This document shows, piece after piece, positions 7,866 through 46,136 of a DNA stretch of 64,000 nucleotides. The stretch's first letter is position 1, and each line of letters opens with the position of its first letter. Source of the stretch: an uncultured Pelagibacteraceae bacterium (GTDB lineage Bacteria; Pseudomonadota; Alphaproteobacteria; Pelagibacterales; Pelagibacteraceae); the NCBI GenBank assembly GCA_902632935.1, contig CACPEJ010000003.1, forward strand, positions 1 to 64,000, read 5' to 3'. The notes beneath the pieces were generated by a model, which saw only the letters and a program-made list of their open reading frames with translations, was not told where the DNA came from and did no database searches. The position numbers and the translations under genes were made by a program.

Positions 7866-10412
7866 ATGCTAAATCCACTTAACTTTTTCTCAAAACTAAT
7901 TAAATCCAATAATCAAAGAGAACTTGATAGAATTGCTAAAATTGTAAACAAAATTAATTTATTAGAAGAAGAAATCAAAAATTTAAAAGATGAGGACTTT
8001 CCAAACAAAACTATCGAATTAAAAGAAAAAGTTAAAAAAGGAGAAAAAATTGAGCAGATATTGCCTGAGGCTTTTGCGGTAGTCAGGGAGGCCTCAAAAA
8101 GAAAAAGAGGAGAAAGACATTTCGATGTACAGTTAATAGGCGGAATAGTCCTACAAGAATCTAAAATTGCTGAAATGAAAACTGGTGAAGGAAAAACGCT
8201 TACTATTACTCTTGCGGCATATCTTAATGCTCTTTATGAAAAAGGGGTTCATATCGTAACTGTAAATGATTACCTCGCTAAAAGAGATTCTCAAGAAATG
8301 GGTGAGATTTATAACTTTTTAGGATTAACATCTGGTTACATAAACAATGATCAAGACGACTCTCAAAGAAAGCGAAATTATAATTGTGATATTACTTATG
8401 CAACTAATAGTGAATTAGGTTTTGATTATTTACGAGATAATATGAAATTTTCAAAAGATGAAATGGTACAAAGGGAACACTTTTTTGCTATAGTTGATGA
8501 AATAGACTCCTGTCTAATTGATGAAGCCAGAACACCATTGATTATTTCTGGAGCAGCAGAGGATAGAACAACCCAATATTTGGCTATAGATAAATTAATC
8601 AGATTTTTAAAAGAAAAAGACTACGAGGTTGATGAAAAGGACAAAAATGTACTTTTGACCAATGATGGAATAAACAATATTGAAAAAATTTTTTCAAATG
8701 CAGGAATTTTAAAAAATAATAACTTTTATGATCCTGAAAACTTAAGTTTGGTTCATCATGTAAATCAAGCTTTACGAGCAAATCATTTATTTCAAAAAGG
8801 TAAAGATTACATCATTCAAGATGATGAGTTGAAAATTATAGATGAATTAACCGGTAGAATTCTTGAAGGAAGAAGATTTGGTGATGGGCTTCATCAAGCC
8901 TTGGAAGCAAAAGAAAGAATTCCCATAAAAGTTGAAAATCAAACTTTAGCTTCAATTACTTATCAAAATTATTTTAAATTATATGATAAGATTTCTGGTT
9001 GTACTGGAACAGCAGTAACAGAATCTCAAGAATTTTACGAAATATATAATCTTCCAGTGGTTGTTATTCCAACTAATAAAAAAATGATAAGAAATGATTT
9101 TAATGACCAAATATTTAGAACAGAGACTGAAAAAAATGATGCTATTATAAGAAAGATAAAAGAGTGCCATCAAAAAGGTCAACCTTTATTGGTGTTTACC
9201 TCTAGTATTAACAAATCTGAAATATATTCAAATCTATTAAACAAAGAGAGTATTAAACATGAAGTACTTAATGCTAAAAATCATGAAAATGAAGCTAAAA
9301 TAATCGCAAACGCTGGCAAAGAAAATTCTGTAATTATAACTACCAGTATTTCTGGTAGAGGAGTAGACATTCAGCTTGGTGGAAAGAAAGGCTCAATGCC
9401 AGATGAAGAATTAAAGTTGAATAAAGAAAAAATTAAATCACTTGGTGGATTATTTGTAATTGGAACTGAAAGAATGGAGTCTCGAAGAGTTGACAATCAA
9501 GCAAGAGGTAGATCAGGACGTCAAGGTGATGAGGGAAATTCAATCTTTTATGTAAGTCTTGAAGATGATTTAATGAGAATTTTTGGATCAGACTCAATGA
9601 ATAATATATTACAAAAACTTGGTCTTAAAGATGGAGAAAGTATTGATCATCCTTGGATAAATAAAGCTTTAGAGAGAGCCCAGCAAAAGGTAGAGGCTCG
9701 AAATTTTGACGTAAGAAAAACATTAATTAAATTCGATAACGTTTTAAATGACCAAAGAAATGTAATCTTTAGTCAAAGAGAAGATGCCATGAATAGTGAC
9801 ACAATTTTTGATTATTCTAATAGTTTTTTAAACGAAATAATTGATGACCTTATTAGACTTAAAATAAAGAAAAAGTCCAATCCTAAAAGCACTGATTTCG
9901 AAAATAAACTTAAATCAATTTTAGGTAAGAATTTTATATATTCATACCTAGAGGAACTTACAAATTGTAGTGATAAAGAATTAAGGGAGTCATTAAATAA
10001 GAAATTTCAAGACTCCAGGGAGGGAAGAATAAAATTGTTAGGTAAAGATCAATCACAGGATATAGAAAAAAGAATTTTTTTACAAACTATTGATATAAAC
10101 TGGAAATCCCACATTCAGTATTTGGAACAACTTAGACAAGTTATCGGGTTAAGATCTTACGGTCAAAGAGATCCTTTAGTGGAATATAAAAAAGAAGCAT
10201 TTCACTTGTTTGAAAGTTTGTTAAGTAGATTGAAACTAGATTTTACAACAATATTAATGAATCTAACTTTAGTTCAATCATCAACTAAAAACCTAGATAA
10301 TGATGAAAAGAAAGAGAATTATAAAAAAGCATTTGATAAAAAAATAAGTAGAAACGAACCTTGCCCGTGTGGTTCTGGTAAGAAATATAAGCGATGTTGT
10401 GGAGCTTTATAA
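7866..10412 (+). CDS. secA: Preprotein translocase ATPase SecA
   Basis: MKTGEGKT Walker A, DEIDS, C-terminal zinc motif CPCGSGKKYKRCCG. Confidence 0.98.
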   Translation: MLNPLNFFSKLIKSNNQRELDRIAKIVNKINLLEEEIKNLKDEDFPNKTIELKEKVKKGEKIEQILPEAFAVVREASKRKRGERHFDVQLIGGIVLQESKIAEMKTGEGKTLTITLAAYLNALYEKGVHIVTVNDYLAKRDSQEMGEIYNFLGLTSGYINNDQDDSQRKRNYNCDITYATNSELGFDYLRDNMKFSKDEMVQREHFFAIVDEIDSCLIDEARTPLIISGAAEDRTTQYLAIDKLIRFLKEKDYEVDEKDKNVLLTNDGINNIEKIFSNAGILKNNNFYDPENLSLVHHVNQALRANHLFQKGKDYIIQDDELKIIDELTGRILEGRRFGDGLHQALEAKERIPIKVENQTLASITYQNYFKLYDKISGCTGTAVTESQEFYEIYNLPVVVIPTNKKMIRNDFNDQIFRTETEKNDAIIRKIKECHQKGQPLLVFTSSINKSEIYSNLLNKESIKHEVLNAKNHENEAKIIANAGKENSVIITTSISGRGVDIQLGGKKGSMPDEELKLNKEKIKSLGGLFVIGTERMESRRVDNQARGRSGRQGDEGNSIFYVSLEDDLMRIFGSDSMNNILQKLGLKDGESIDHPWINKALERAQQKVEARNFDVRKTLIKFDNVLNDQRNVIFSQREDAMNSDTIFDYSNSFLNEIIDDLIRLKIKKKSNPKSTDFENKLKSILGKNFIYSYLEELTNCSDKELRESLNKKFQDSREGRIKLLGKDQSQDIEKRIFLQTIDINWKSHIQYLEQLRQVIGLRSYGQRDPLVEYKKEAFHLFESLLSRLKLDFTTILMNLTLVQSSTKNLDNDEKKENYKKAFDKKISRNEPCPCGSGKKYKRCCGAL

Positions 10413-36657: not shown

Positions 36658-37425
36658 TTATTGAACCAAATTATTCATCTCATTAAATTTTTTTAATCTT
36701 CCTAAAAACAAATTTTGATATGTTACTAGTTCGGGCCCTTGAATTTTAAACTCTTGAAATAAATTATCCACTGTGCAAACAAGAATAATACAAGATGTAA
36801 TATTAGAATTATACACAACATTATGTGCTAAAGAATACGCTGCACATTGTAATAGCCAACTATCTATATACTCGAATTTTTTTGGTCTCCGCGCATTTTT
36901 AAAATCTATGATGCAAGATTGACCCTCATAAATTCCTACACAATCAGCAGTACCCGCGTACCTATCAGGATAATAAAGTGTACATTCAACTCCCCATATT
37001 TCCTCTAGTCTATTTTTTAAACCCTTTTCAATAATTTCTTTAGCCATTGTTTTATATTGTTCTTTATCCTCAAAGAAACTCAAGTTTTCTCTTCCTAAAA
37101 GAAAAGACTCTAAGTAACTGTGCATTTGAGACCCGCGGGAAGCAGCGTCTTTAACAATCTTATTTGCTACAGCTTCTCCTGTTCGTTCTCGCCAGTTGGC
37201 TAAAGCAGCCTTATCCTCTTCAGATTTTGTTGCATCTAGAATTGAGGTGACGCTTGGTAATTTTGTTTCACCTAATAAGTATCTTCTTATTCCATCTTCA
37301 GTTGCTCTTGATGATGTAGGATAGTTATATTTCTTATTCCATCGCATGAGATTTCTTATAGAGGGTATTTTCTGAAAAAAGAAATTATTTTTTAACTTGT
37401 CTATTTCTCTCAACGAAATTCTCAA
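36658..37425 (-). CDS. PD-(D/E)XK exonuclease, MGME1/phage-exonuclease-like
   Basis: LPSVTSIL, RGSQMHSYLE, YAGTADCVGIYEGQSCIIDFKNARRPK (D...DxK core). Confidence 0.7.
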   Translation of the reverse strand: MRISLREIDKLKNNFFFQKIPSIRNLMRWNKKYNYPTSSRATEDGIRRYLLGETKLPSVTSILDATKSEEDKAALANWRERTGEAVANKIVKDAASRGSQMHSYLESFLLGRENLSFFEDKEQYKTMAKEIIEKGLKNRLEEIWGVECTLYYPDRYAGTADCVGIYEGQSCIIDFKNARRPKKFEYIDSWLLQCAAYSLAHNVVYNSNITSCIILVCTVDNLFQEFKIQGPELVTYQNLFLGRLKKFNEMNNLVQ

Positions 37426-38482
37426 CGTTCTCAGTTAGTACAGCTTTTTCAACTTGCTCGGGATCTTTTATATTTTCTAAAGTTCTTGTAATTGATCTAG
37501 CATCAGTTCCAAACTTATCAACAACACTCATCGCCTCATCTAATTTTTTTCTTAAAACTATTACATTGTCAAAATGTTTAGCAAATCTTGTGCTGATTGT
37601 TTTTAGATGATTGTAAATTTCCACAGCTCCCTTTTGAACTTTTAATGATTGAAAACCCATATGTAGGGATTGTAAATAAGCTGAGAGAGTATTAGGGCCA
37701 CAAATAACAATTTTATATTTTCTCATCAATTCTTGAGTAAGTAATTCTTTTGAACTTGGATCTTGATACTCGGTTAATTCTCTGTAAAGACTTTCTGAGG
37801 CTGCATAAACTATGGCAAAATCAGTTGTTTTTGGTGGTACTATATACTTCTCATTAACGCTTTTTGCTTTCAACTTAAAAGCACTTGCCAATTTTGCTCT
37901 AGCATCAGCAACTGCTTTTTTATCATCTGCCTCATGTGCATCTGTAATTGCTTTAAATTTTTCGACTGGAAAATGAGAGTCCACTGGGACCAAAACATCT
38001 CCTTGAAGTTTGATAGCAAATTCCACATTCTCACTAGTATCCTCTTTCATCTTCACATTAGTCATAAATTGAGATGCGGGTAATAAGTCCCTCATAAGCG
38101 CATCAAGGCTACTCTCTGCTAAAACACCATATTTCTTAACGCCAGCAAGTATTTTTGTAATACCTTCTTGGCTTTGATTTAATAATTGAACCTGTTGATT
38201 GAAATTTCCAACCTTTTCATCAACCTTAGTTAAAGCCTCAGTCATGTCTTTTGTAACACCAGTTGATAAGGCATTAAACGAAGTAGACATAGAACTTAAT
38301 GAGGTATTGATTGTAGCATTTAAGCTATCTTTGAGTTTTACAATTTCTGCATTTAAATTAGCTATTTCTTCAGCTTCTTTATTTTCATCTTCTTTTTTAG
38401 TTTTAGACTTAATGTTTAAATAAAGAATTGCTAATGTTGCTATAAGCAACAAACCTAAAATTATTATTAAAATTGTATCCAT
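37385..38482 (-). CDS. rmuC: DNA recombination protein RmuC
   Basis: N-terminal TM, coiled coil, PVDSHFPVEKF, AIVYAASESLY. Confidence 0.92.
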   Translation of the reverse strand: MDTILIIILGLLLIATLAILYLNIKSKTKKEDENKEAEEIANLNAEIVKLKDSLNATINTSLSSMSTSFNALSTGVTKDMTEALTKVDEKVGNFNQQVQLLNQSQEGITKILAGVKKYGVLAESSLDALMRDLLPASQFMTNVKMKEDTSENVEFAIKLQGDVLVPVDSHFPVEKFKAITDAHEADDKKAVADARAKLASAFKLKAKSVNEKYIVPPKTTDFAIVYAASESLYRELTEYQDPSSKELLTQELMRKYKIVICGPNTLSAYLQSLHMGFQSLKVQKGAVEIYNHLKTISTRFAKHFDNVIVLRKKLDEAMSVVDKFGTDARSITRTLENIKDPEQVEKAVLTENVENFVERNRQVKK

Positions 38483-38524
38483 GATTCGTATGTTATACCT
38501 CCTTGATTATATTTAAAGTTTTTT

Positions 38525-38734
38525 TCAATTTACTTTTACGATTATGTTATTTTTTATTATTACCTCTGCAAAAAATTCACGTCCTTTATTCTCGGTTGAA
38601 TGAGGCCTGTTGCTACCAACTAACACTCCACTTTCCTTATACTCAGGTCCAAACATACTGGTTTCAGTATAATTAAGTGTTTTTCCTATATTTTCCTTAA
38701 GCTCTTTTTTGGATTTGTAATTAAAAATTAGCAT
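38525..38734 (-). CDS. Conserved-looking small hypothetical protein
   Basis: 69-aa ORF, stop/start junction with the next upstream ORF at 38734. Confidence 0.6.
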   Translation of the reverse strand: MLIFNYKSKKELKENIGKTLNYTETSMFGPEYKESGVLVGSNRPHSTENKGREFFAEVIIKNNIIVKVN

Positions 38735-39024
38735 TAGTTTAATAACCTTTTGGGGACTTTACCCATCATAATTTCTTTCATATCTGAAAATTCTGAAGCA
38801 ACATGATTTTGAACTGTTTTTATAAATGACTTGATAGTTTTTTTATTATAGCCCAAATTTTTTAAAATCTTCTCAGCCTCTTTTTCATTTTCAGTAGAAA
38901 TATAATGCTCAGCGATAGATAAATACCTAAAAAAAACCTCTTTTTGATTTTCTGATTTTAATTCTGATAGTTTTAGCTCCATTAAGTAACTTTTATCCAT
39001 TATTTGATATATATCTTTAGGCAA
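38734..39024 (-). CDS. Hypothetical protein, 96 aa
   Basis: ORF overlapping the 3' end of vsr by 8 nt; operonic. Confidence 0.65.
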   Translation of the reverse strand: MPKDIYQIMDKSYLMELKLSELKSENQKEVFFRYLSIAEHYISTENEKEAEKILKNLGYNKKTIKSFIKTVQNHVASEFSDMKEIMMGKVPKRLLN

Positions 39025-39388
39025 TGATTAGACGTTCCAGAGTGTTAAAAGTTTTATCAATATTCTTTCCTTTTAAAGTACACTCCCATACATCAATGAC
39101 TTTCCAACCTAATTTTTTAAGTTTATCTTTATTAATAAAATCTCTCTTTTTATTTAGTTCTAATCTTTCTATCCAATATTGAGTTTTAGTCTTTGGCACA
39201 TTGCTATGGGCGCAGCCGTGATAATGCCAATAGCAACCATGAACGTTTAGAATTGTTTTATGTTTATGCAGAACTATGTCTGGTTTGCCAGGAAGTTTTT
39301 TTACATGAATTCTAAATCTATAACCATTTTTATATAGTATAGATCTAATTAATTTTTCTGGTTTAGTGTTTTTGGATTTAGTATTCAA
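39017..39388 (-). CDS. vsr: Very short patch repair (Vsr)-like endonuclease
   Basis: KPEKLIRSILYKNGYRFRIHVKKLPGKPDIVL, VHGCYWHYHGCAHSNVPKTKTQYW, KLGWKVIDVWECTLKGK. Confidence 0.93.
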   Translation of the reverse strand: MNTKSKNTKPEKLIRSILYKNGYRFRIHVKKLPGKPDIVLHKHKTILNVHGCYWHYHGCAHSNVPKTKTQYWIERLELNKKRDFINKDKLKKLGWKVIDVWECTLKGKNIDKTFNTLERLIIA

Positions 39389-39392
39389 GTTT

Positions 39393-40169
39393 TCAAATCT
39401 GGTTTAACTTTTTGAGTTCATCAAATTCTTTAGGAAGTAATAAAACTATATCATTTGGATCCATTGACCATATATCATAAATTTCATTATATTGATTTAA
39501 CTTATCAATTAGTCTTCCTAAGGATGCTTTAACTAAAGTTTTTTTATTTTTTTTTCTGATATATTTTTTTGAGTAGCCTGGTCTGGGTTTATTATTTTTT
39601 TTATCAAAATAAAGTTTATAAGAGATATGGCCACTGGGAATAAAATTTTCATTTATTCTGTGACTAATAAACTGTTCTAAATAATCTGATCCAAAATAAG
39701 GTGCTTTTGATAAAAATAATTTAGATGACTCTCCATAAGTATTCACAGCATACCATGGGGTCCTAATTAAATGTCTATTTCTAACAAACCAATCTTGATT
39801 AAGAATATATCTGTGTTCCGAGTAACCTGTCATTTCAATACTAAACACTTCATTAAAATGAAATAATGTTATCCAGTCCCACATTTTTTCATCAAAATAT
39901 ATTTCATTTTGATTACAATCTTTTAATAATTCATTTAAATAAATTCCAAGATCATATGAATTTTTAAAATTTTGTTTTTTTAAAATTTTTCCATTCTCAA
40001 CTTCTGAACTAAGTGTGTCGTTATTCAGCAGATTTTCAATCTCATCTTTTAGTTTTTTAGTAAATCCTTTTTTGATGTCTTTTTTATTCTGTATTATTGA
40101 TTGCTTAATTTTATCGTAGATTAAAATATACTTATTATGACCATCCTCTGTAAATCTTCTCAGTTTCAT
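39393..40169 (-). CDS. Uncharacterised protein, 258 aa, of the GHKL/Vsr/methyltransferase cluster
   Basis: Long ORF, overlaps the neighbour by 4 nt; no catalytic motif recognised by eye. Confidence 0.85.
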   Translation of the reverse strand: MKLRRFTEDGHNKYILIYDKIKQSIIQNKKDIKKGFTKKLKDEIENLLNNDTLSSEVENGKILKKQNFKNSYDLGIYLNELLKDCNQNEIYFDEKMWDWITLFHFNEVFSIEMTGYSEHRYILNQDWFVRNRHLIRTPWYAVNTYGESSKLFLSKAPYFGSDYLEQFISHRINENFIPSGHISYKLYFDKKNNKPRPGYSKKYIRKKNKKTLVKASLGRLIDKLNQYNEIYDIWSMDPNDIVLLLPKEFDELKKLNQI

Positions 40170-41053
40170 ATTTCGCTTTCCTCAAGGTCGATAGATGGAG
40201 CAAAGTTATTGTAAGAAATAAATTTATCTATCAGTTTTTTCCCAGAGGCGTCTGGTAAATTACTGACAAAAGTATTTACTACATCCTCTATCCATTGCTC
40301 AGCTTCTGGATTTGTTTCGGTCTCTCCATTATCAATTATTAACAAAGACTCGGGAGTAGTAATTTCGGGATCACCTAATTTTTTATTTATTTCCTCAAAC
40401 CATTTTGATTTCCAGGGACAATCTTCAAATTTATTATCTGTTAAATATGTTTTAAGTAGCTCTCGAAGTGCTGCTGTATAGATGAGTGTTTTTTGGATAG
40501 GGTCTATATTATTGTCTAACTTATGTTTTATGTTACATCCTCTTTTTAGTACTAAGATTGGCTTATTACCTGGGGTCATTTCTAGTTTAAATGCTGTACC
40601 AATATCATCCTCCCTGGTTGGCAATAAAGATTCTGTTTTATAATTCCCATCTTTTCCATCGTCTGGTTCATCATAAAATTCCCTTATTTTAGATCTACCA
40701 ATTATCCTATAAACGACTACATCATTAAATTTACCTTTTTTAGAGACAAAGAGATTAAATCTTACAGCATCTTTATCAATATTGTTAACAAAGTAAGAAA
40801 AGGTATTACTTTCTTCTTTATTCAAAGTTTTAATATCTCCCATGTTCCATGGTTTTAATCCAGCACCTCTATTGTTGTAAGCTTGAAAAAAAACCTCACA
40901 ATCATCATCAAAATTATGTCTTTTCAAATTCACTTCTACTTTAATATGAATTCCATCATTAGAAATTTTATCTAGCAAAACCTTCACGTCAGGATTTTCA
41001 CCTTTATGTGTGATTCTCTCCTCATCAAAAATTGTAATTGTATTTTTAGACAT
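40166..41053 (-). CDS. Uncharacterised protein, 295 aa, of the GHKL/Vsr/methyltransferase cluster
   Basis: Long ORF, overlaps both neighbours; no catalytic motif recognised by eye. Confidence 0.85.
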   Translation of the reverse strand: MSKNTITIFDEERITHKGENPDVKVLLDKISNDGIHIKVEVNLKRHNFDDDCEVFFQAYNNRGAGLKPWNMGDIKTLNKEESNTFSYFVNNIDKDAVRFNLFVSKKGKFNDVVVYRIIGRSKIREFYDEPDDGKDGNYKTESLLPTREDDIGTAFKLEMTPGNKPILVLKRGCNIKHKLDNNIDPIQKTLIYTAALRELLKTYLTDNKFEDCPWKSKWFEEINKKLGDPEITTPESLLIIDNGETETNPEAEQWIEDVVNTFVSNLPDASGKKLIDKFISYNNFAPSIDLEESEI

Positions 41054-43206
41054 TAGCTCTCTCTTTCATACATGTGATGTATCATAAATTTTTCCTCAGA
41101 TTCTTTTCCAAAACCAGTTATTGAAAAGTCAAAATCTTCTTTTGAGGCAGCGCAAACAATTTTATTCTTATCATTCTTAACGATATTAAGTGATCCATGC
41201 ACATTATACTTGAAAGTTTTAGTGTCACTAAAATCAAAATCTTCCTCACAATAGTTATTGTATGGTCTTGTAGTGCCATCATCATATGCTGCTGTGATAC
41301 GGATCTTAATTGGATAAAAGGTATAATTATTTTTTCTAAATTCTTCAAATTCAGTTAGTCTGTTATTTGTTGACATTATGCCTTGATTAATCTTTTGGAC
41401 GTGTTTTTTTGGTAATTTATCTTTTCTTTCATTTAATAATTTATTTGCTTCTTTAATAAATAATTCACCTTGCTCTTCATATCTTGCTATATCCTCTTTC
41501 TTATATTTTACACCTTTGGCAACCCAATAAATTTTATCATTTTCTTTTTTTACTCTTGCTCGATATGCTTTTAATTTATTAGGTATTTCTGGTAACTTAT
41601 ATTTTGAGGTAAGAACATCATCGTTTTCGTCCTCATCATCTTCCTCTCCATGATTTTCATTTTCTATCTCTCTATCTGAAATTATTGAACATAAGTCTAA
41701 AGTTGTTTTCTCATCTAAAGTATCACCACTCTGACTTAATAAATCCTGTAATGACATGAAAGCATGATTCAAAAATGAAATATAAGGTCTTTGAACATTA
41801 TGTTTATAGAAAACCTTATATTTAGGATGGTCAACTCTTACTCTAGTATGATTTGCAACTTCTCCATTTTTTACAAGTAGCATCGACTCTTCTTCTTGAA
41901 TATCCGCAAAGAAGAAATTAGTAGTTCTTTTTCGACATTGTGTAATTGGCATGTCACCACGTAATGTATCGCAATACTTATATTGTTGATTTGCATAATC
42001 GGGAAATTTTTTTACGTAAAAATTAAAAGTACAATTAACATCTTCAAATTGGTCGGTAAGCTTGCCCTCTTTAAGTATTTTTTTTGCGAGGATGAATTTT
42101 AATTGATATTTAATTATTTTCCCTTCTTTATATAAATTTTGTATTTCATCCGTAAGATTTGACGAAACATCCAGAGAGGTTGGTCTTTGAGGTACAATAC
42201 TCAAATCAAAATTTTTCGCCTTATTTTGATCAATTTCATCTATAAAATCAAAATATTCTTCTATCATTTTTTTATCAGTTTCATTTTCAGAATATTTTTC
42301 TTTATAAATTTCAAGTAACGTATCTTTATTAATCTCTTTTCCACTAGCGACCTCAACTCTTAATTTTTTTCTTAAAATTGGGACTCGATAATTTTTACAA
42401 ATTGTTTCTTTTACTTTATCGAGAGTGACATCTTCGTTAATAAAGGGGATTACTACTGTTAATCCAGGTTCTTTTTTTCTTTTAACACCAAAAATTTTTT
42501 TAAGTTCATCAATTTTCTTTTGGTTACTTATAGGAAGAGCCCAAAATTTTCCTTGATAATCTTTACTTTCAACTTTGTCCCCAAAATGAACAAAGGGTTT
42601 ATATTCTGTCCCGTTAAGTTCAAAGATACCGAAATATGAAATTCCCATAAAAAATTCAGTCCCATCATCTCTAACTGTGAAAAAGAAAAAAGTTGAAATA
42701 TCGGAACTCAAACAAAAAGTTTGTTTACCTTCTCCCTCACTACCGCCCAAATGAGCAGCCTTACCTTTTCTTCTGCCCCCTATCTCATGAGTAAACTGAT
42801 GTATCAGATTAGGTTGACCGTTAGGTAATTTTGAAAAATAATGATTTGGATCACCAAGTAATCCTGTTGTATTAAAATCTTCCATTATTAGACAATTTAT
42901 ATCTTGCCCATGTTCTGGAATTTTTTGCATTGCAGAAAGTTCTGAATTTTCAAGATAATCTTCAAATTTATCTTTTAAGAAATTTTCCTTAAAGCTTGTA
43001 TATGAAACTCTAGTAGCATGAATTTTAATCAAAGTATTTGAGAAAGATTTTGCAATAGCATCTAAGGCATTTTGTATAAATTCTAATACACAGCTTAATG
43101 CGTTAAATTTATCTTGTGGTTTTGAATCACCTGGTTCGTCACCCTCTCCAACAGGGCCTGCAACCCATGTAAAACTTTTAATTATTTTTCTATTAAGTTC
43201 ATTCAT
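41053..43206 (-). CDS. GHKL (MutL/MORC-like) ATPase
   Basis: N box EFIQNALDA, LIMEDFNTTGL, GGSEGEGKQTF glycine-rich box, GLTVVIPF. Confidence 0.85.
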   Translation of the reverse strand: MNELNRKIIKSFTWVAGPVGEGDEPGDSKPQDKFNALSCVLEFIQNALDAIAKSFSNTLIKIHATRVSYTSFKENFLKDKFEDYLENSELSAMQKIPEHGQDINCLIMEDFNTTGLLGDPNHYFSKLPNGQPNLIHQFTHEIGGRRKGKAAHLGGSEGEGKQTFCLSSDISTFFFFTVRDDGTEFFMGISYFGIFELNGTEYKPFVHFGDKVESKDYQGKFWALPISNQKKIDELKKIFGVKRKKEPGLTVVIPFINEDVTLDKVKETICKNYRVPILRKKLRVEVASGKEINKDTLLEIYKEKYSENETDKKMIEEYFDFIDEIDQNKAKNFDLSIVPQRPTSLDVSSNLTDEIQNLYKEGKIIKYQLKFILAKKILKEGKLTDQFEDVNCTFNFYVKKFPDYANQQYKYCDTLRGDMPITQCRKRTTNFFFADIQEEESMLLVKNGEVANHTRVRVDHPKYKVFYKHNVQRPYISFLNHAFMSLQDLLSQSGDTLDEKTTLDLCSIISDREIENENHGEEDDEDENDDVLTSKYKLPEIPNKLKAYRARVKKENDKIYWVAKGVKYKKEDIARYEEQGELFIKEANKLLNERKDKLPKKHVQKINQGIMSTNNRLTEFEEFRKNNYTFYPIKIRITAAYDDGTTRPYNNYCEEDFDFSDTKTFKYNVHGSLNIVKNDKNKIVCAASKEDFDFSITGFGKESEEKFMIHHMYERES

Positions 43207-43477
43207 AATTTCTCAATTCTCTTTTTATTACCTCAATTTCATTTAAGCATTTTTTTAAAATAAACTTACTTTTTGAAACTTTTATAAATTTTAATATATT
43301 GGTTGGTAAATTTAGAATTTTATTTAGTAAAAATAATATTTTCTTGTTTTTATAAAATTCAATCTCTGTTTTTTTGGTGAATTCAACACTTTGTAAATAT
43401 ATTGTATAATCCCTTGCAAATTCTTGAGCGTATTGCAATCTGTCCTTTAAACAAGAATGGAAATAATCTCTTTTCAA
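43199..43477 (-). CDS. Small hypothetical protein, 92 aa (TTG start)
   Basis: TTG preceded by AAAGGAG; overlaps the GHKL gene start by 8 nt. Confidence 0.65.
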   Translation of the reverse strand: MKRDYFHSCLKDRLQYAQEFARDYTIYLQSVEFTKKTEIEFYKNKKILFLLNKILNLPTNILKFIKVSKSKFILKKCLNEIEVIKRELRNYE

Positions 43478-43498
43478 TTAAACTCCTTTATAGTTAGT

Positions 43499-43557
43499 TT
43501 TTAACGCGTACAAGCTACATAGAAAGAAAGAAAGGTGTAGCTTTGCACGCATTAAAA
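43499..43557 (-). repeat. 59-nt inverted repeat: 21-bp hairpin with a single bulge (attC-like or ncRNA domain)
   Basis: Minus strand TTTTAATGCGTGC-(A)-AAGCTACA / loop / TGTAGCTT-GTACGCGTTAAAA, all arms pair with two GU wobbles. Confidence 0.8.
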
Positions 43558-43614
43558 TTTGCATAGTTAACTTGCCAATTGCAACTTTTGAACACAAACA
43601 TAAGAAAAAACCAG

Positions 43615-43700
43615 GATGCACTCTGGCAAGAGGTATTGTAAGTGTTCTTTCGATGTAGCTGCCCACCGTGTATGATAACCTCTTCTTATTAAGGTGCATC
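43615..43700. other. Nested stem element (candidate structured RNA domain)
   Basis: GATGCAC(43615-43621)/GTGCATC(43694-43700) outside AAGAGGT(43628-43634)/ACCTCTT(43678-43684). Confidence 0.6.
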
Positions 43701-43712
43701 AATTCTCTAATT

Positions 43713-44000
43713 TTATTTTTTAAAATACTGCTCATAAAGATTTTCTGAATTTTGGTTTTTGTTTTTCTTCTTAGAATTGCGGCTCCATTTGTCATAAACA
43801 AATTCTTTGCTCCATTTTTTTAAACAATCCTCAACAATTTTTTGTGCTTTATCTGGTACCTCGTAAGTATTTCTATTAGACAAATATCCAACACCTCTTA
43901 AAGCACTTTTTAGAAGTCTCATTCTCAAGTTAAAATAATGCTCAAACTTTTCCGATGGCGTCATATGTCGTGTTCTGCTATTATCGTCTTTCTTAACCAT
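43713..44000 (-). CDS. Small basic hypothetical protein, 95 aa, divergent from the methyltransferase
   Basis: ATG ORF MVKKDDNSRTRHMTPSEKFEHYF..., 98 bp from the divergent methyltransferase start. Confidence 0.65.
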   Translation of the reverse strand: MVKKDDNSRTRHMTPSEKFEHYFNLRMRLLKSALRGVGYLSNRNTYEVPDKAQKIVEDCLKKWSKEFVYDKWSRNSKKKNKNQNSENLYEQYFKK

Positions 44001-44098
44001 TTTTATGACCTTTAATTACCCCTTCTTTTCTCTATTATATTTCTTAATATATTTCATTTGCGTTTTCACAGACGATCTGATAACAGTTTTGAAACTAA

Positions 44099-45307
44099 AT
44101 GTCAAATGATAAATTAAAAATTGCTGAATTATTTTGTGGGGCTGGCGGTTTTGCAGAAGGAGCCAAAAAAGCTGGTTTTAAGCATATTTGGGGTGTTGAT
44201 CTTCATAAAGATTCCTGTGAAACCTTTAAAAATAATCAAAAATGTGAGGCTTTTCATGAAAAAATAGAGGATTTTTCAAAGCCAAAAAGACTTGAGAAAG
44301 TAAAGAGAGATTTTGGAAAAATTAATGGTCTCCTTTTTGGATTTCCCTGTAATGATTTTAGTTTAGTAGGCAAAAATGAAAAAATGGAGGGTAAATTTGG
44401 TGGTTTATATACATATGCTTGTGATGTACTAAATTTTTTTGAACCTGAATTCTTTGTTGCAGAAAATGTCACTTCTCTAAGTAAAAAATTAAAACTCAAT
44501 TCATCGCACCAGGTAATAGTAGAAGAGGAATTTAATAAAGAAGAGCTAAAAAATCAGAATTACCAAAATTTTAAAAAAATAATGGGTGATTTAGCTAAAT
44601 GTTCTAAACATGGATATAGAATTTACGCTGATAATTATAAGTTCGAAGAATATGGAATTCCACAAACAAGACATAGAATTATATTAGTTGGTTTTAGAGG
44701 TGATTATTTTGATAAAAATAACATTAACTTTGAAAAACCAAAAAAAATAAAAGGACCTTTTACAACTTGTAAAAAAGCCCTCCAAAAAATACCTAAATGG
44801 GCTGAACACCAAGAGCTAACAAATCATGACGAAAGAGTTATACGAAGACTGAAAAAGACAGCTGAAGGTAAAAATGTTTGGGATTTAGGTGACGATAAAG
44901 ATGGTCTCCCTGGAGTCAAAAAAGCAAGAATGAGCCATATCTATAAAAGATTAGATAGTTCAAAACCTGCCTATACTGTCACTGGAAGTGGAGGTGGAGG
45001 GACACATGTATATCATTATAAAGAAAATAGAGCTTTAACGAATAGAGAAAGAGCAAGATTACAAACTTTTCCTGATAAATATAATTTTGTTGGAGGAAAA
45101 GAGTCTGTAAGAAGACAAATTGGGATGGCTGTACCTGTATTAGGAGCAGAAAAAATAATGAAAGCTGTCAAAAAAGCATTAAAAAAAAATAAAAAGCAAA
45201 CTACTTTTCATCACGACTGGATGATAAAAGCCAAAGGGAAAGATTTATACTTTACGGGAAAAGAAGAATTAGGGCCACAAATGAGTTTTGATTTTAATAA
45301 TTCTTGA
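44099..45307 (+). CDS. DNA (cytosine-5-)-methyltransferase
   Basis: Motif I AELFCGAGGFAEGAKKAGF, motif IV GFPCNDFS, motif VI ENV, motif VIII YGIPQTRHRIILVG, motif IX/X RERARLQTFPD..RQIGMAVP. Confidence 0.95.
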   Translation: MSNDKLKIAELFCGAGGFAEGAKKAGFKHIWGVDLHKDSCETFKNNQKCEAFHEKIEDFSKPKRLEKVKRDFGKINGLLFGFPCNDFSLVGKNEKMEGKFGGLYTYACDVLNFFEPEFFVAENVTSLSKKLKLNSSHQVIVEEEFNKEELKNQNYQNFKKIMGDLAKCSKHGYRIYADNYKFEEYGIPQTRHRIILVGFRGDYFDKNNINFEKPKKIKGPFTTCKKALQKIPKWAEHQELTNHDERVIRRLKKTAEGKNVWDLGDDKDGLPGVKKARMSHIYKRLDSSKPAYTVTGSGGGGTHVYHYKENRALTNRERARLQTFPDKYNFVGGKESVRRQIGMAVPVLGAEKIMKAVKKALKKNKKQTTFHHDWMIKAKGKDLYFTGKEELGPQMSFDFNNS

Positions 45308-45320
45308 TAGATTACATAAT

Positions 45321-45452
45321 ATGGATTTAATATTTATCTTTAAAATTATAGTAGTAATAGGAATTTTAATTGGACTTTATGCAATTATCAGAAATCTAGA
45401 CATTATAAAAATTATTCTTATTTACTTTAAAGATAAATTATTTGGTAAGTAA
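45321..45452 (+). CDS. Small single-TM protein, 43 aa
   Basis: MDLIFIFKIIVVIGILIGLYAIIRNLDIIKIILIYFKDKLFGK, 13 nt downstream of the methyltransferase. Confidence 0.45.
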   Translation: MDLIFIFKIIVVIGILIGLYAIIRNLDIIKIILIYFKDKLFGK

Positions 45453-46136
45453 TCTTATTAAACTTTTTAACCCCTTTTTCTTCTTACTTTTCTTTGAGCT
45501 AAATATACAAGCTTGAGACTTTAGTATTTCTCCATCATTTAAAATTCTAAGATTGTTTTGTCTAAGTGTAGCTCCTGAGCTTGTGATATCAGATATAAGC
45601 TGCGCAGAATTCATTGCACACATCAACTCAGTGCTGCCAAGTGATTTAACAATGGTAAAGTTGGTGACACCTCGTGAATAAAGAAACTTTTGTGTGAGAT
45701 TTACGTACTTCGTTCCAATTTTTAACAATGATTTATTACTTTTTTTGTAATCCTCTGCAACCTCATCAAGATCTAAAGTGGTAAATAAGTCGATAAATTC
45801 GTTTGGACAAGCAAGAACTAAGGTTGCAAAACCAAAATTAAGCTTTTTTTCCAATTTGATATTTCTTTGTATATTGATATCAGACTCCTTTAAGAGATCT
45901 AATCCACTTATACCAATATCTAAATTACCAATAGATAACTGATCTAAAATTTCTCTTGCGTGCATAAATGAAACTGAAATATTAGGTCTTCCTTTGATTT
46001 TACCTATCAATTCTCTTTTGCCTCTTTCAAAAAAAATTCTCAATTTCTTTTTTTTTAATACTTTTTCAGACTCTTCTTTTAGTCTGCCCTTAGATACAAT
46101 TCCTATCTTAATCTTTTCTTTATTCATAAACCCCAA
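45438..46136 (-). CDS. hisG: ATP phosphoribosyltransferase catalytic subunit (short form)
   Basis: HisG-short ORF paired with HisZ; DIGISGLDLL. Confidence 0.92.
   Translation of the reverse strand: MGFMNKEKIKIGIVSKGRLKEESEKVLKKKKLRIFFERGKRELIGKIKGRPNISVSFMHAREILDQLSIGNLDIGISGLDLLKESDINIQRNIKLEKKLNFGFATLVLACPNEFIDLFTTLDLDEVAEDYKKSNKSLLKIGTKYVNLTQKFLYSRGVTNFTIVKSLGSTELMCAMNSAQLISDITSSGATLRQNNLRILNDGEILKSQACIFSSKKSKKKKGLKSLIRLLTK

Follow-up and report, generated by a model that had tools for sequence, protein, structure and literature searches.

The window analyzed here, a 64,000-nucleotide stretch of DNA from an uncultured Pelagibacteraceae bacterium, carries on its minus strand a predicted pseudoknotted RNA of ~210 nt that is undescribed, present in a single copy, and located between two small open reading frames (ORFs) of a candidate defense locus. 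An earlier note on this sequence had singled out a bulged hairpin at 43499 to 43557 as resembling an attC recombination site or a structured RNA; its sequence and coordinates match exactly, but the note overlooked the larger element, which extends to ~43706 and of which the hairpin is the 3' quarter. We interpret this hairpin, here called P4, as an accessory 3' domain of a larger conserved RNA.

The genes of the locus are ordered Dcm (divergent), p95, the gap with the RNA, p92, a GHKL-type ATPase, p295, p258, Vsr, p96, and RmuC, with the following features:

44099 to 45307, plus strand: Dcm, C5-cytosine DNA methyltransferase, divergent from the RNA operon (Pfam DNA_methylase, 3e-58)
43713 to 44000, minus strand: p95, small upstream ORF, swapped between loci (17 to 100% identity) and ending shortly before the RNA
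~43490 to 43706, minus strand: the whole conserved noncoding element (P4, linker, and 5' core)
43483 to 43489, minus strand: Shine-Dalgarno sequence AAAGGAG of p92, 9 nt past the P4 end
43199 to 43477, minus strand: p92, conserved small ORF that follows the RNA, 82 to 95% identical between loci
41053 to 43206, minus strand: GHKL-type ATPase, related to paraMORC and PADLOC PDC-M33A
40166 to 41053, minus strand: p295, cassette protein (ORF)
39393 to 40169, minus strand: p258, cassette protein (ORF)
39017 to 39388, minus strand: Vsr-type endonuclease (Pfam Vsr, 5e-22; PADLOC Vsr, 9e-29)

The ATPase has the GHKL motifs ExxQNxxD and GSEGEG. It has no PADLOC PDC-M33 match itself and is linked to that system through its relatives only: a homolog with 44% identity (L035) matches PDC-M33A with an E value of 6e-17, and PDC-M33A matches in six ATPase relatives range from 2e-13 to 5e-22. 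The locus combines a GHKL ATPase of this family with a DNA methyltransferase, the pairing looked for in PDC-M33 and paraMORC loci, and we regard it as a restriction-modification (R-M)-like candidate defense locus related to both. Near-identical ATPase loci belong to uncultured Pelagibacteraceae (SAR11). The p95 protein and its equivalents, encoded first in the operon, are small basic proteins that vary greatly between loci and are possible regulators.

Ten Pelagibacteraceae genomes of a single genus carry the element at the same position; their loci (n = 10) share 82 to 97% identity with no indels within the ~203-nt element, and its edges are sharp at GAATTGATGCAC and GCGTTAAAAA in these 10 loci regardless of the upstream ORF. 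The RNA of one locus (L032) retains 85% DNA identity despite an adjoining ATPase that is only ~21% identical and the absence of p92. A covariance model of the 5' core recovered three members in a second genus of the Pelagibacteraceae (SAR11) at E < 1e-17, one of which (G036) was in the training set of the model and two of which (G712 and G771) were outside it; all three copies adjoin the ATPase, and in this genus the RNA is placed between a p92-like ORF and the ATPase. In each of these 10 + 3 loci a stop codon lies a short way upstream of the element, and p92 and/or the ATPase follows it directly. The window's own genome has one full-length match and each related genome has one copy; among 289 sampled alphaproteobacterial genomes the element was present in the window's own genome alone, and no relative was recovered from the viral contigs, phage records, and plasmid records searched. 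A mobile element or MITE was rejected on its single copy in the window's own genome, three further weak model matches (E values of 0.1 to 0.25) not being credible. The 235-nt inter-ORF gap is more stable than its shuffles when folded as the minus strand (z = -3.0), but not as the plus strand (z = -0.96).

The domains and helices of the predicted RNA, all on the minus strand, are as follows:

43590 to 43706, minus strand: 5' core domain (P1, P2, P3, P1b, and PK), common to the second SAR11 genus
43694 to 43700, minus strand: P1 5' strand GAUGCAC, pairing with 43615 to 43621; C-G becomes A-U in the second genus
43615 to 43621, minus strand: P1 3' strand GUGCAUC, which doubles as the loop of hairpin P1b
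43678 to 43684, minus strand: P2 5' strand AAGAGGU, pairing with 43628 to 43634; two two-sided changes in the second genus
43628 to 43634, minus strand: P2 3' strand ACCUCUU, pairing with 43678 to 43684
43651 to 43668, minus strand: P3 hairpin CGGUG/CAUCG, 43664 to 43668 with 43651 to 43655; G-C becomes A-U in L031, L032, and L034
43611 to 43626, minus strand: P1b hairpin CCAG/CUGG, with the P1 3' strand inside its 8-nt loop; terminator-like in the window
43642 to 43647, minus strand: PK 5' strand GAACAC; all six of its pairs vary, three of them with two-sided changes
43590 to 43595, minus strand: PK 3' strand GUGUUC, pairing with the PK 5' strand
43558 to 43589, minus strand: conserved linker from the pseudoknot to P4, GUUGCAAUUAGCAAGUUAACUAUGCAAA in most relatives
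43499 to 43557, minus strand: P4 hairpin, the 3' domain of the RNA; a 21-bp stem with a single bulge, closed by a conserved pyrimidine-rich loop

The comparative evidence indicates that the 5' core is a double pseudoknot, in which P3 is followed by the PK helix enclosing hairpin P1b, and the 5' segment of the core forms P1 by pairing with the P1b loop and P2 by pairing with the strand that immediately precedes P1b. The core loops are strongly conserved, and 8 of the 29 core pairs have two-sided changes. In an alignment of 11 core sequences, 96.9% of cells are paired, 8 pairs are two-sided, and the covariation score is 0.208 (0.107 in shuffled alignments), a value reached by 0 of 500 shuffles. 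Extending the alignment to 13 sequences raises the score to 0.282 (0.133 shuffled, again 0 of 500), but the count of two-sided pairs is then matched by 43 of 500 shuffles and is less exceptional, as three of the rows are related sequences from the second genus. Both alignments retain 96 to 97% of core pairing with 15 to 29 two-sided cells; none of 500 shuffles matches the percentage paired, the number of two-sided cells, or the covariation score, and in control structures slid along the alignment only 32 to 49% of cells pair. PK is the best-supported helix, with the variants GAACAC/GUGUUC, GAACAU/AUGUUC, and GAACUU/AAGUUC; its 12-bp version in the second genus, GGAUUUGAAGUU/AACUUCAAAUCC, was read by eye and is also drawn by the fold. 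In that genus, G-C in P1b is replaced by U-A or U-G. An alternative 5' hairpin proposed by RNAalifold (columns 8 to 18 with 27 to 36) is unlikely, as it is not kept in the second genus. The earlier note had tied a structured-RNA reading to covariation in homologs, and compensatory base changes of this kind are present in the core.

P4 itself, read on the minus strand, is a 59-nt hairpin of the form TTTTAATGCGTGC-A-AAGCTACA-(16-nt pyrimidine-rich loop)-TGTAGCTTGTACGCGTTAAAA, in which the bulge can be placed at either of two adjacent A's with the same energy. The hairpin described in the earlier note is a real fold: the predicted energy of the 59-mer is -24.3 kcal/mol, compared to -7.35 ± 2.08 for 200 dinucleotide shuffles (z = -8.15), and 0 of the 200 shuffles are as stable. 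It is found in all 10 same-genus loci, with 98.6% of stem cells paired and, in L032, with the single bulge in the other register and pairing retained. Its variation is low (three pairs have one-sided changes and are still paired), and since P4 pairs vary so little its support comes mainly from stability and conservation. P4 is restricted to the window's genus, the second-genus copies being without it. Like an intrinsic terminator it is a strong stem-loop, but it is followed by CUAACUAU on the minus strand or TTTGCATAG on the plus strand, with no U-tract past the stem in either direction, and the downstream genes are retained in the operon; we rejected a terminator at this position. Elsewhere in the element one terminator-like site was found (P1b with a U-tract) versus 0.6 expected by chance, and this U-tract is present in the window's genus and absent in the second.

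The distribution of RNA and ATPase suggests that the element is tied to the ATPase system rather than to one ATPase allele. Both occur in the same 8 of 399 genomes of the genus, as found with an ATPase profile that included several of those eight ATPases but would also show others. One ATPase locus (L036 in genome G256) has no recognizable copy of the RNA, which is therefore not indispensable. Over 10 loci, the constant blocks have mean identities of 0.81 (Dcm), 0.88 (p92), and 0.93 (Vsr), compared to 0.38 for p95 and 0.34 for the ATPase, which are swapped. RNA core identity is uncorrelated with that of the ATPase (rho = -0.01), p95 (0.09), or Vsr (0.00), and identity in the P4 half tracks the downstream p92 (rho = 0.57); these values are descriptive, the pairwise distances not being independent.

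The swapped genes lie in a hotspot between hisG and RmuC (36658 to 46136 in the window, and also in L018 and L027 to L034), in which the p95 and ATPase cassettes are exchanged and the blocks flanking them (Dcm, RNA, p92, Vsr, and p96) stay constant, a pattern resembling allele exchange by homologous recombination within the constant blocks. In genome G573 (L027, 7254 to 13654), a different cassette lies downstream of the same RNA, encoding a distant GHKL/PDC-M33A protein, a 347-amino-acid (aa) protein, a DUF6339/PDC-M33C protein, and an 872-aa protein that matches sigma-70 region 4 once and has two RNA polymerase alpha-CTD-like matches. L034 has an extra 159-aa cassette protein (9615 to 10094) with a weak SRA/SAD match (E value of 0.006, below the cutoff); the SRA/SAD domain reads modified cytosines.

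Two readings would place the element outside RNA altogether. One forward frame is open throughout, comprising 67 codons without a stop in all 10 loci where the other two forward frames have several stops; it stays open in the 5' core of the second-genus members as well, and its apparent omega is 0.54. In the window this frame spans 43499 to 43706 on the minus strand, starts TTGATG, and in most loci runs to about the p92 start. A small protein gene is nonetheless very improbable: variable columns are distributed 19/23/25 over the three codon positions, compared to 20/17/60 in the adjacent p92 (omega of 0.12), most codons in common with the second genus agree in their third base as well, and the compensatory changes track helices. 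The missing third-position excess led us to rule out a protein-coding reading, and the frame, which evolves without codon constraint, is for that reason probably coincidental. The lowest probability falls to a DNA-level element (an attC site, a MITE, or a recombination anchor acting as a single- or double-stranded palindrome), a reading that the evidence has already largely refuted, even though the palindrome looks perfect and neighboring cassettes are swapped around constant blocks. The earlier note had proposed a relic attC site or another single-strand recombination substrate on the basis of partly fitting ends; however, TTTTAAT, the 5' end of P4 and nearly invariant in 10 relatives, does not fit RYYYAAC, and GTTAAAA misses the final Y of GTTRRRY. 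P4 resembles attC in being an imperfect palindrome that has an extrahelical base and carries GTTAAAA on one side, but it lacks the RYYYAAC box, cassettes, and IntI, and it is a single-copy part of a larger covarying RNA. The comparisons that the note recommended bear this out, with one copy per genome, no integron integrase (TIGR02249) in the window's own assembly, which is 65% complete, and the element at the same operon position everywhere rather than between cassettes. The covariation and pseudoknot of the 5' core are features of RNA, and the second genus is without the hairpin though cassettes differ there too.

Among roles for an RNA, cis regulation of the ATPase and restriction genes is the best-supported and most likely reading, with a trans-acting RNA its main rival. 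We consider the cis role probable on balance, given the position of the RNA, its single copy, its indifference to the effector allele, and the linkage of P4 to the downstream gene; that indifference, together with the linkage of P4, is better explained by a regulator serving the whole operon than by a cofactor for a single ATPase. The earlier note's alternative of a regulatory RNA upstream of the Shine-Dalgarno sequence stands insofar as a conserved, covarying RNA lies just 5' of the p92 and ATPase genes, but the hairpin on which it centered is an accessory 3' domain. As a cis regulator, the RNA would be transcribed within a p95-RNA-p92-ATPase operon and would set the expression of the ATPase and nuclease genes relative to that of the divergent methyltransferase. 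Translation, elongation, or processing downstream would be altered when the core folds, probably on binding a protein or small molecule, and P4 may be a spacer or stabilizer beside the p92 ribosome-binding site. In nested folds, which leave out pseudoknots and ligands, the unpaired probability of the p92 Shine-Dalgarno sequence is 0.32 to 0.67, broadly like that of shuffled leaders.

A trans-acting RNA, which would be processed from the operon and serve as a scaffold, guide, or inhibitor bound to the ATPase, Vsr, Dcm, or p92, is possible but unlikely. RNAs act as defense components of this sort in retrons, type III toxin-antitoxin systems, and OMEGA systems, and a double-pseudoknot core with strongly conserved loops would suit such a ribonucleoprotein too; the RNA co-occurs strictly with the system, the core is retained whether it precedes p92 (one genus) or follows it (the other), and P4 might serve as protection at the 3' end. 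On the other hand, core similarity is unlinked to the ATPase allele or Vsr, the L036 locus has an ATPase without the RNA, and no gene for a reverse transcriptase, Cas protein, or RuvC was detected in the neighborhood. The more specific proposal of a paraMORC/PDC-M33 system in which the double-pseudoknot RNA would be a protein partner (for example, a sensor, inhibitor, or scaffold) is doubtful; if true, it would mean RNA-dependent R-M-type immunity in one of the ocean's most abundant bacterial groups. A ribozyme or RNase-processing element that splits p95 from the p92/ATPase message appears improbable: the position is intraoperonic, and in its nested double pseudoknot and almost invariant loops the RNA resembles ribozyme folds, but no known Rfam ribozyme family was matched, even at permissive thresholds.

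The family is called new because it has no Rfam match and because nothing like it is found in the main text of the relevant surveys or in the open-access literature, and by these comparisons it would add a new family of structured RNAs to a type of defense locus that is already known. An Rfam scan of the window returned tRNAs only, with no match over the element at gathering or permissive thresholds (weak matches had E values of >2, far below the cutoffs). Restriction and DNA methyltransferase genes are unmentioned in the main text of both the 2009 survey of SAR11 RNAs (PMC2704228) and the 2010 survey of 104 motifs. Our searches of the open-access literature recovered nothing on PDC-M33, DUF6339, or GHKL ATPases with an anti-phage RNA, and no RNA component or regulator of MORC/paraMORC-type restriction systems. 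A constant RNA amid swappable effector cassettes would offer a handle on control (methylation before restriction) or sensing. SAR11 bacteria are hugely abundant and, to our knowledge, few of their defenses have been described, which makes a new RNA in a SAR11 defense locus ecologically relevant; it is also directly testable.

Comparison with known systems places the locus beside two of them. The ATPase relatives match PDC-M33A and one locus also matches PDC-M33C; we know of no RNA in the definition of PDC-M33. GHKL-ATPase R-M loci of the paraMORC/MORC type have been described by Iyer et al. (2008; PMC2292703), in a paper with a figure legend that names Cand. Pelagibacter, and they share with the present locus a C5 methyltransferase, a GHKL ATPase, a Vsr endonuclease, and uncharacterized cassette proteins, but no counterpart to the constant structured RNA inside the operon was found described in the consulted part of that paper. 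The closest precedents for the RNA itself are SAM-V and the rpsB motif, pseudoknotted cis-regulatory RNAs of SAR11 (Meyer et al., 2009; PMC2704228), which likewise belong to a streamlined marine alphaproteobacterium and lie just 5' of the gene that they control; the element described here differs from them in sequence and architecture, has no Rfam match, and precedes a defense operon rather than metabolic or ribosomal genes.
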